From IMG/VR virus record IMGVR_UViG_3300036795_000123, positions 1-52,734 of that record: a stretch of DNA of 52,734 bases, one strand, 5' to 3'. Shown in pieces: positions 285 through 40,409 of this stretch (positions are counted from its first letter, which is position 1; every line of letters starts with the position of its first letter). The stretch comes from a virus. The notes beneath the pieces are model-generated. The model was not told the origin of the DNA. It saw nothing but the letters and a program-made list of their open reading frames with translations, and made no database searches. Position numbers and translations under genes: made by a program.

Positions 285-388
285 GTGTTTTCATATGCAG
301 CCCTTCGACGAAAACTGTGCCAGAGCCTAAAATGCACCCCATGGCCTCCTGGTGTGCCGTACATTCGATATTCGTGACTGTGCCAAGG

Positions 389-474
389 TGTGGCAGGGGT
401 GTGGCAACCCGTTTAAACGTGTCTTAGGCCTACCTACGTGGCATCCCGCTTTTCTAAGATGGCGTAATGTGGCA
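389..474 (+). repeat. TGTGGCA short repeats (iteron-like)
   Basis: TGTGGCA occurs at 389-395, 400-406 and 468-474, with a variant CGTGGCA at 437-443. The first two are spaced by 11 bp, about one helical turn. A reverse copy (TGCCACA) lies at 52586-52592. They sit between the promoter-like region and the likely start of the first gene, and may be iterons or regulator sites. If translation actually begins at the earlier GTG (352), they would be coding. Confidence 0.3.
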
Positions 475-495
475 GTAGCTGCTATTTCTGGCGGA

Positions 496-1944
496 ATGAT
501 GCACCCCAACCCAAAAAACCCGCGCAACATCACCGACAAAAAGTTAGCAATGCTCAAGAAATCGCTGGAGACGTTCGGCGACCTCGGGGGAATCGTTGTA
601 AACGAAAGCAGCCAACAGATCGTAGGTGGTCATCAACGCGTCAAGGCTCTGCTCGGTGGGGATGGCAGTATCCCAGAAGGCGCTGTGCGTATCACCAAGC
701 GATTTTCAGAGCCGACCCGTACCGGGACCATAGCCGAAGGTCATATCGTCGCTGTAGGGGCGCACATGGCCTCAGAGCGCTATCCGTACCGGGTAGTCCG
801 CTGGGATGAGTCGCGGGAGCGCGCGGCGAACCTGTCAGCCAACAAGGGCGCTGGCGAATTCGATCTTGACGCAGTGGCGGACTGGCTCGGCGACCTAGAA
901 ACGGCGGACATCGATCTTGACTTGACCATGTTCGATGTCGATGACCGCGACGCGTTGTTGTTGGGGGAAGTGCCGCCATCGCTCGCCCCCGTGATAGCTC
1001 CTTCGGTTAACCCCGATGTCGATAGGCTGCAGGCGCTGGGTGAACTTGGTGAGGAGGAGATCCCAGAATCCGCGCCGCGTGTCTGCGAGCTCGGGGACGT
1101 GTGGCAGCTCGGCAAGCATCGGCTAGTTTGCGGCGACGCGACAGATCCGGCGGTCGTAGAAAGTTTGATGGCTGGTAAGAAAGCAGATCTGGTTTTTACA
1201 TCACCCCCCTACGCACAACAGCGCGATTACAAAAACAAGATCATGAATTGGGACGCGCTCATGCAAGGCGTGTTCGGAAACTTACCAGCGCACGAGAAAA
1301 CTCAAGTCCTAGTTAATCTAGGCCTGGTGCACCGTGATGGCGAATGGCAGCCATATTGGGATGGGTGGGTTGAATGGATGCGTGGTCAGGGATGGAAACG
1401 CAAGGGGTGGTATGTTTGGGATAAAGGCTACGCCGTCCCCACAGCGCAGCACTCGAGAATGCAGCCGGCACATGAATGGGTGTTCCATTTCTGTAAAACG
1501 GAAATCGTTGTGCAAAAAACCGCAGTGTGTAGAAGAGCAGGAGAAAAAAACTCAAAAACGAGCAGGCGAAATGCAAAAGGAGAAGTAACAGCGAGCAACT
1601 GCGCGGGCCTTGCGGTACAGGACAATAAAATCCCGGATAGTGTATTCCGTATCACTCCCGAGCAAGCGCGGGGCCTCCATAGCGCTGGGCATCCGGCCGT
1701 GTTCCCGACAAAATTGCCAGCGGAGGTTTTAGCAGCGTTCACTGATGCGGATGCTATTCTTTACGAGCCCTTCGCTGGTAGCGGCACAAGCATCATCGCC
1801 GCCGAGATGATGGGCCGCACATGCTACGCGGCGGAGATCGCGCTAGAGTACTGCGACATCGTGTTAGCGCGGTGGAAAAAGAACGGCGGCGACGAACCTG
1901 TTTTGGCACCGAGCCCAGCACCGAAGAGAAAAGTTCATGGGTAA
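496..1944 (+). CDS. ParB-like nuclease domain fused to DNA N4/N6 methyltransferase
   Basis: An amino-methyltransferase that should transfer methyl from S-adenosylmethionine to adenine N6 or cytosine N4 in DNA. The N-terminal ~110 residues match a ParB/Srx-like fold (NPRNIT near the start, then GGHQRVKAL). The methylase follows with catalytic TSPPY at about residues 235-239 and the SAM-binding FAGSGT at 426-431, so the motif order is catalytic then SAM-binding (beta type). This fusion is common in phages. The frame stays open back to a GTG at 352, but the ParB domain begins at the tandem ATG at 496/499, so I start there; no convincing ribosome site decides. The final codons overlap the next gene by 8 bases. 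Target site unknown. Confidence 0.85.
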   Translation: MMHPNPKNPRNITDKKLAMLKKSLETFGDLGGIVVNESSQQIVGGHQRVKALLGGDGSIPEGAVRITKRFSEPTRTGTIAEGHIVAVGAHMASERYPYRVVRWDESRERAANLSANKGAGEFDLDAVADWLGDLETADIDLDLTMFDVDDRDALLLGEVPPSLAPVIAPSVNPDVDRLQALGELGEEEIPESAPRVCELGDVWQLGKHRLVCGDATDPAVVESLMAGKKADLVFTSPPYAQQRDYKNKIMNWDALMQGVFGNLPAHEKTQVLVNLGLVHRDGEWQPYWDGWVEWMRGQGWKRKGWYVWDKGYAVPTAQHSRMQPAHEWVFHFCKTEIVVQKTAVCRRAGEKNSKTSRRNAKGEVTASNCAGLAVQDNKIPDSVFRITPEQARGLHSAGHPAVFPTKLPAEVLAAFTDADAILYEPFAGSGTSIIAAEMMGRTCYAAEIALEYCDIVLARWKKNGGDEPVLAPSPAPKRKVHG

Positions 1945-39214: not shown

Positions 39215-39465
39215 CGTTTTGTTGCCTCATCTATCGCAATCAAGGCTTCCGTCAACGTATCGAATTGGGTTTTCCACCAAATAAACGGTTTGGGTGTAAG
39301 CACGCTCCAACGCATGCCTGAATTACCGATACCACCGCCCTGAACAGCAAGGCCGCCTAACTCGATCGAGTATCCTTTGTATTCGATCGCGTTCGATGGC
39401 TCGCTATCCGGGCAATGAATAAGCGCGTACTGCTTAGGGCCCTTCCCGCGAAAAAACCAATTCAT
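39211..39465 (-). CDS. Small hypothetical protein
   Basis: 84 residues. Central beta pattern (YKGYSIELGGLAVQGGGIGNSGMRWSVLTPK) then a helix (FDTLTEALIAIDEATKR), resembling small phage strand-helix proteins. Coupled to the C5 methyltransferase by ATGA. No family recognised. Confidence 0.65.
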   Translation of the reverse strand: MNWFFRGKGPKQYALIHCPDSEPSNAIEYKGYSIELGGLAVQGGGIGNSGMRWSVLTPKPFIWWKTQFDTLTEALIAIDEATKR

Positions 39466-40409
39466 TGCATCGCCTCATCTAGCAACGTGGAAAACGCTAA
39501 TGCTGCGGTGGCGGGAACAACGGCGTTCCCTAGCGACCTAAGTCGGTCCACCCGATGGGGAAGCCCATCAACCATTCGACCCACATCGGGCTCAGATTTC
39601 CACCACCCGTTCCTTGGGCACACGCTGCTACTTCGTCGTTTAGATTCCGACCCCCATGTTTGCTGCCGAAGCGACCCACCCTGGACCCATAACCCCTCGT
39701 TGCGTCGTGCGCTAAAGGCATTGGCCATAACTTCACAGCCGTTTCTAGCCCGTCCCCCGAATTCGGCGAAGCCCCCGCACGATTGTAGTTGCCGCTGATC
39801 GTCGGTGTCGGCCAGAGATTCTTCCGCGCCATGGATTCCAGACTGGGACGTATCTTCCCCACGCGTCCCGCCGTGCTGCCACGGTTGTCGCCGTATGATT
39901 GTGCGGTCGGTGTGGGCAAGTATGAAAAGCCGTTGTCGTAGGTGGGGCGCGCCGATTTCCGCTGCCGAGAAGATGCCCGCCGAAACGTGGTAACCCATTC
40001 CTTGAAGGTCTGCGCGGACTTGCTCAAGTCCGATGGACACATGTCCGGGGACGTTTTCAAAGAAGCATAAAGCTGGTTGGCACTCTGCGATGATTCGAGC
40101 GATGTGTGGCCACAAGTGCCGAGGATCATCTTCTCCCCCGCGTCGCCCTGCAACGCTGAAAGGCTGACACGGGTATCCCGCAGTAGCAAGATCCACGACG
40201 CCACGCCATGGCTTGCCTCGGAATGTCTTAACGTCATTCCAGAGAGGAGCCGGATCCAGTTCGCCTTTTTCCATGCGCGCGACAAGGCATGCGGCTGCGT
40301 ATCCTTCCCTCTCGACGTAACACACGGTTCGGTGAGGCACCATGGCGCTAATTCCGCGTTCAAGTCCCCCAATCCCGGCACATAAAGCCAACCCATTCAG
40401 CACCTTCAT
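39462..40409 (-). CDS. C5 cytosine DNA methyltransferase
   Basis: 315 residues with the ordered C5-methylase motifs: I LALCAGIGGLE (7-17), IV GYPCQPFS (catalytic Cys81), VI FFENVPG (116-122), VIII LRQRLFIL, and X LGNAVVP near the end. The region between VIII and X is short, so the target-recognition domain is small. It methylates cytosine, probably to evade restriction. Most of the gene is also open in another frame (39530-40396). Coupled by ATGA on both sides. Confidence 0.92.
   Translation of the reverse strand: MKVLNGLALCAGIGGLERGISAMVPHRTVCYVEREGYAAACLVARMEKGELDPAPLWNDVKTFRGKPWRGVVDLATAGYPCQPFSVAGRRGGEDDPRHLWPHIARIIAECQPALCFFENVPGHVSIGLEQVRADLQGMGYHVSAGIFSAAEIGAPHLRQRLFILAHTDRTIIRRQPWQHGGTRGEDTSQSGIHGAEESLADTDDQRQLQSCGGFAEFGGRARNGCEVMANAFSARRNEGLWVQGGSLRQQTWGSESKRRSSSVCPRNGWWKSEPDVGRMVDGLPHRVDRLRSLGNAVVPATAALAFSTLLDEAMQ
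39530..40396 (-). CDS. Long overlapping reading frame inside the C5 methyltransferase gene
   Basis: 288 residues in the +1 frame of the methyltransferase, with its own AAGGTG five bases before ATG 40396. The C-terminal half (LPTPTAQSYGDNRG, LWPTPTISGNYNR, then LSPMWVEWLMGFPIGWTDL) looks like a phage protein family I recall as separately annotated genes next to C5 methylases. Dual coding is therefore plausible. It could also be non-expressed shadow, with the 'family' itself arising from methylase genes read in this frame. Confidence 0.4.
   Translation of the reverse strand: MGWLYVPGLGDLNAELAPWCLTEPCVTSRGKDTQPHALSRAWKKANWIRLLSGMTLRHSEASHGVASWILLLRDTRVSLSALQGDAGEKMILGTCGHTSLESSQSANQLYASLKTSPDMCPSDLSKSAQTFKEWVTTFRRASSRQRKSARPTYDNGFSYLPTPTAQSYGDNRGSTAGRVGKIRPSLESMARKNLWPTPTISGNYNRAGASPNSGDGLETAVKLWPMPLAHDATRGYGSRVGRFGSKHGGRNLNDEVAACAQGTGGGNLSPMWVEWLMGFPIGWTDLGR

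Follow-up and report, generated by a model that had tools for sequence, protein, structure and literature searches.

The stretch of DNA analysed here (the window) comprises positions 1 to 52,734 of the IMG/VR virus record IMGVR_UViG_3300036795_000123, 52,734 nucleotides in length. On its minus strand lies a gene for a C5 cytosine-specific methyltransferase (MTase), and a second long ORF is nested wholly inside that gene in another reading frame (Table 1). The methylase frame, called frame A, matches PF00145 in Pfam over residues 7-179 (E = 3e-29) and PHROG_363 (E = 2e-61). Since it encodes a large domain of the M.HhaI fold with the catalytic PCQ (Cys81, at about 40167-40169) and the ENV motif, it can be assigned to the C5 cytosine-specific MTases. 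The nested frame, called frame B, is offset by +1 relative to frame A, with the second codon position of B falling on the wobble position of A, and its residues 70-285 match the profile of PHROG_1008, 'DNA methyltransferase' (E = 3e-21). A sequence-only reading of the window had pointed out the 288-residue frame lying fully within the 315-codon methylase gene, its LPTPT/WPTPT elements and terminal WVEWLMGFPIGWTDL, and its resemblance to a known phage protein family. All of these were found to be correct, the last through the PHROG_1008 match. The ATG of the methylase gene overlaps with the stop codon of the upstream ORF as ATGA (40406-40409), which suggests translational coupling with that ORF. 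The neighbours of the methylase gene are minus-strand genes including those of a family A DNA polymerase and a PD-(D/E)XK nuclease. A second DNA methylase gene, of the N6/N4 type, lies elsewhere in the window (352-1944, plus strand; PF01555, E = 2e-22).

Table 1. Features of the nested methyltransferase locus, in window coordinates (TRD, target-recognition region; SD, Shine-Dalgarno energy in kcal/mol; SN and NS, substitution rates defined in the text).
Feature	Position	Strand	Evidence
Frame A: C5 cytosine methyltransferase, proposed alpha subunit	39462..40409	-	315 aa; PF00145; AlphaFold vs M.HhaI
Frame A residues 1-172: large domain, motifs I-VIII	39894..40409	-	pLDDT mostly >90; SN 0.196 vs NS 0.039
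Frame A residues 173-286: opposite frame-B TRD and motif IX; open, mostly unstructured	39552..39893	-	pLDDT drops <50; A stops at 1/522 sites
Frame A residues 287-315: motif X (LGNAVVP) and C-terminal helix	39465..39551	-	pLDDT 77-97; SN 0.239 vs NS 0.039
Frame B ORF: proposed nested beta subunit	39530..40396	-	288 aa; PHROG_1008; codon shuffles
Frame B residues 160-263: target-recognition-like region, LPTPT/WPTPT repeats	39608..39919	-	NS 0.192 vs SN 0.026; L229 and L010 (fused MTases) have a homologue in frame
Frame B residues 267-286: NLSPMWVEWLMGFPIGWTDL, motif IX equivalent	39539..39598	-	near-invariant residues; NS 0.149 vs SN 0.022
ATG preceded by AAGGTG: start in the sequence-only reading	40394..40396	-	SD -3.9; extension unprotected from stops in homologues
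ATG, frame B residue 54: candidate beta start, 23 codons before the catalytic Cys	40235..40237	-	weak SD, -1.7
GTG, frame B residue 65: candidate beta start, 12 codons before the catalytic Cys	40202..40204	-	SD -5.9

Is frame B open merely by chance? When the synonymous codons of frame A are shuffled, frame B runs for 123 codons on average; the actual length exceeds that in all shuffles (500/500). The third frame of the window (frame C) is unremarkable, with 92 codons against 80 in such shuffles. Frame B served as the query for the first 80 viral loci, almost all of which have a methylase in the same relation. This recruitment bias was countered by collecting further loci and pairs by frame A only. 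In 86 loci, mostly viral contigs found by the methylase frame alone, frame B exceeds the codon-shuffle null (p < 0.05) in 88% of cases, compared with 3.5% for frame C, and a set of loci from bacterial genomes repeats this openness. Across 141 non-redundant loci, the frame-B stops fall from the null rate to nearly zero at about 15 codons before the catalytic Cys and remain so through motif VIII, while the frame-C stops track their own null. In summary, hundreds of homologous loci, among them the sets recruited by the methylase frame alone, have a stop-free frame B but not a stop-free third frame. Interruption of frame B in close homologues, which had been named earlier as the sign of an artefact, was not seen, as frame B is unbroken in the homologues found by frame A alone. 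These loci and pairs answer the objection of recruitment bias. GC content was rejected as the cause of the open frame, the effect being strong at 42-50% GC and lacking in frame C. Column-wise conservation compared with shuffles was dropped as a proof because relatedness inflates the z values, which are large for frame C, too.

Which frame is coding, and where? For independent pairs of homologues, an OLGenie-style classification sorted the substitutions according to their consequences in frames A and B, where SN denotes changes that are silent in A but alter the amino acid in B, and NS the reverse. The counts were taken on one sequence of each pair, using only isolated substitutions and a simple transition weight; the rates are therefore approximate. 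In 53 independent pairs, SN predominates over NS along motifs I-VIII, indicating that frame A is the coding frame there. The relation is reversed between motifs VIII and IX, where the TRD lies, and in motif IX itself, indicating frame B in both segments, and it returns to that of frame A past motif IX (rates in Table 1). For the TRD segment, 46 of the 53 pairs agree. Over the TRD and motif IX together, substitutions that are synonymous in B and nonsynonymous in A occur at 0.19 per site, while those of the opposite kind occur at 0.03, so the constraint on frame B that had been proposed as a check is borne out. The 26 pairs recruited by frame A only gave the same result. Frame-B stops were found at none of 797 sites from 15 codons before the catalytic Cys to motif VIII (53 pairs), and frame A keeps its near-freedom from stops in the TRD segment despite little constraint on its amino acids there. 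Frame A thus has coding control over motifs I-VIII, frame B over the TRD and motif IX, and frame A again over motif X, with both frames open throughout (53-54 pairs). Frame B is conserved and subject to selection at the protein level, and it carries the TRD and motif IX. From the pattern of sequence change, the constrained part of each frame appears to face a stretch of the other frame for which the main requirement is to remain open.

Because of this segment-wise pattern and the avoided stops, both frames are apparently translated. The alternative that frame B is an annotation artefact or a fossil, open through high GC or as the untranslated remnant of a frameshifted ancestor, may be regarded as close to negligible. 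High GC does help in a minority of loci, in which the shuffle null is itself long; however, the effect persists at the GC values given above and in independent pairs, and stops in frame B are fully avoided. Between a true dual-coding gene and an artefact, the two options left by the sequence-only reading, the former is favoured by the stops, by the substitutions and by the members of the frame-B family described below.

A census of homologous loci gave 334 nested loci, all at +1 (334/334), 32 split loci, 31 of which are at +1, and 8 loci with both parts in one frame. Four of the last group (L010, L220, L229, and L389) look complete, and some of the 8 are deletions or frameshifts. Sequencing errors may be present in some of the metagenomic loci that are split or fused; isolate or prophage genomes cover all three forms, namely nested (Diva), split (Eagle), and fused (prophiT49-1). 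The nested members include gp50 of Paenibacillus phage Diva, annotated as 'g49 internal gene', and ORF28 of Escherichia phage K1ind2. In Mycobacterium phage Eagle, the methylase chain gp78 ends after motif VIII. The PTP repeats and motifs IX and X are found in gp77, which is read in the +1 frame and overlaps gp78 slightly. Thus, family members whose genes are not overprinted on a methylase gene do exist: Eagle gp77 is one, some 30 further split loci provide more, and there are also in-frame fusions. In L229, L220 and L010, the catalytic domain and the frame-B sequence are fused in one frame; the fused L229 matches the frame B of the window at 40% over 121 residues (E = 1e-17), and L010 matches it with E = 5e-11. 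The other two frames of L229 have 11 and 6 stops, and the alternative frames of L220 also have many. Across homologues, frame B shows WPTP repeats and the C-terminal end LNPMWVEWLMGxPxGWTDL, with L268, P270, V273, E274, L276, M277, G278, P280, G282 and T284 of the motif IX equivalent being near-invariant. A fourth layout was found in Actinomadura and Streptomyces (L341, L344, and L346), where the PTP-repeat TRD is in frame B, which stops just before motif IX, and motifs IX and X are in frame A.

The AlphaFold model of frame A can be superposed on M.HhaI with a Z score of 22.9 over 200 residues. It consists of a confident M.HhaI-like large domain and a motif X helix, with about 100 disordered residues between them (pLDDT <50), and because of this disordered stretch, frame A would provide an alpha chain without a small domain. 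Frame A also lacks motif IX. In a single-chain C5 MTase, one chain combines the large domain with the TRD and motif IX, whereas residues 180-286 of frame A are predicted to be disordered and the TRD and motif IX reside in frame B. Frame B modelled alone reached a pLDDT of 58, and no PDB match was obtained by Foldseek with that model. Searching PDB sequences with frame B and Eagle gp77 also gave no match. Since the alpha chain lacks motif IX and the small domain, since Eagle gp77 is a separate protein, and since L229, L220 and L010 have the two parts fused, frame B is best read from these sequences as the missing small domain of the methylase itself, a relation that had gone unnoticed in the earlier note.

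The locus very probably encodes a two-polypeptide C5 MTase of the M.EcoHK31I kind, in which the alpha subunit would be the large domain and the nested beta subunit would be the small domain. The putative alpha chain would be translated from frame A and comprise motifs I-VIII, a disordered run-through of about 100 residues and the motif X helix. The putative beta chain would be translated from the +1 frame B from its own start, its C-terminal half forming the small domain with the TRD and motif IX. The two chains would then assemble in trans into the usual two-domain methylase and methylate DNA. It is likely that the arrangement arose when two compensating frameshifts, the first following motif VIII and the second preceding motif X, divided a single-chain enzyme; the single-shift (split) and unshifted (fused) forms both occur among the homologues.

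The same succession of coding frames could also be read by a single ribosome, which would translate motifs I-VIII in frame A, read the TRD and motif IX after a +1 shift into frame B, and return to frame A for motif X to make one polypeptide. The A-B-A coding control does follow the motif order of a single-chain enzyme, and fused in-frame homologues are known. However, such frameshifting needs no protection of frame B from stops ahead of the hand-off, yet about 110 codons upstream of it are protected; frame A stays protected through the TRD and motif IX; and the split homologues have frame B as a gene of its own, equipped with a motif X. One-polypeptide frameshifting is therefore quite improbable. 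Rather, I infer that the beta chain of a two-chain enzyme is initiated independently, because of the protected stretch upstream of the hand-off and the split homologues.

Where would the beta chain start? The sequence-only reading had given frame B a ribosome site of its own, and the AAGGTG before the ATG at 40396 (-3.9 kcal/mol) does indeed surpass the site of the frame A start (-2.2 kcal/mol), but the extension that would begin there is unprotected from stops in homologues. The beta start in the window would be among 40396, 40237 and 40204. Because stop protection begins only about 15 codons before the catalytic Cys, the first 55 or so of the 288 codons are probably an unselected extension, and 40237 or 40204 is the more likely start. 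The Shine-Dalgarno support for the beta starts is weak: the sites are stronger than those of the other frames (p = 1e-4) but not clearly stronger than in codon-shuffled sequences at those positions (p = 0.06).

Streptococcus phage MM1 orf14 (L171:1655-2080) and L400-L478 are single-chain C5 methylases with the TRD and motif IX in frame A. These MM1-like methylases were tried as a negative control and failed as such, in that their frame B is open over motifs IV-VIII (no B stops at 173 A-silent sites), though not over the TRD and motif IX. Their frame B ends in a conserved SLSDILEEnVpEKYFLS, which is a main-frame element in other C5 methylases, such as L368. Thus, openness over motifs IV-VIII alone is no evidence for a TRD subunit, and the present case rests on the TRD and motif IX segments. 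Since the MM1-like methylases keep frame B open over motifs IV-VIII, the N-terminal half of the beta chain may have a role of its own. Could frame B then be an overprinted gene of unrelated function that overlaps the methylase gene by chance? The openness of its N-terminal half even where the TRD and motif IX are in frame A would fit such a gene. On the other hand, its C-terminal half shares homology with the TRD and motif IX that single-chain methylases carry in frame, and it is precisely that small domain which the alpha chain lacks, making an unrelated function very improbable. Around the two-chain enzyme, a broader picture is offered tentatively, as a real possibility that falls somewhat short of being probable. 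Phage C5 MTases in general would share one fold between overlapping frames in at least four switch-point layouts (nested, split, TRD alone in frame B, and MM1-like with only the post-VIII element in frame B), and the N-terminal half of frame B would be a conserved protein module that docks onto the catalytic chain or regulates it.

The enzyme of the window resembles M.HhaI in the fold of its large domain and in the motif order along the DNA, while M.HhaI has one reading frame and one polypeptide and the present locus uses two frames. M.EcoHK31I offers a closer parallel. Its beta gene, too, is nested in another frame; in the window, frame B is contained entirely within frame A at +1. In M.EcoHK31I, the alpha chain has motifs I-VIII and X and the beta chain has motif IX (Lee, Kam and Shaw 1995, as described in PMC3404938). 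Judged by this published layout, the window has the same two chains, with I-VIII and X in the large one and IX in the small one. The predicted TRD of M.EcoHK31I was placed in its large subunit (PMC3404938), whereas the TRD of the window is in the nested frame B, as indicated by selection and by the fused homologues. M.AquI consists of two polypeptides of one methylase plan, split after motif VIII (PMC3404938), a layout shared within the present family by Eagle gp78/gp77. In contrast to M.AquI, which has motif X in the small subunit, the window has motif X in frame A and a wholly nested beta frame. A literature search for nested phage methylases found none. In PHROGs, frame B (PHROG_1008) and frame A (PHROG_363) are separate families, whose labels are silent on their being two parts of one enzyme.

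Thus, the kind of enzyme is known from one studied example, and what is new is its breadth and the hand-off between frames. The comparison settles the frame-B family, often annotated as a hypothetical protein, an internal gene or a duplicate methylase, as real, and identifies it as the probable DNA-recognition half of the enzyme it overlaps; frame B, rather than the disordered part of frame A, is therefore the place to look for what determines the specificity of these methylases. Annotation frequently omits frame B or labels intact pairs as broken. On the chromosome of E. coli Ec1117 (L397:1063-2232), RefSeq gives two incomplete pseudogene pieces, yet frames A and B are both open. In Pseudomonas phage Shamal (L175:1505-2191), the frame-B protein alone is annotated and the methylase-like frame there is unannotated. 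With fused, split and nested forms within one enzyme family, the evolution of overlapping genes becomes traceable.
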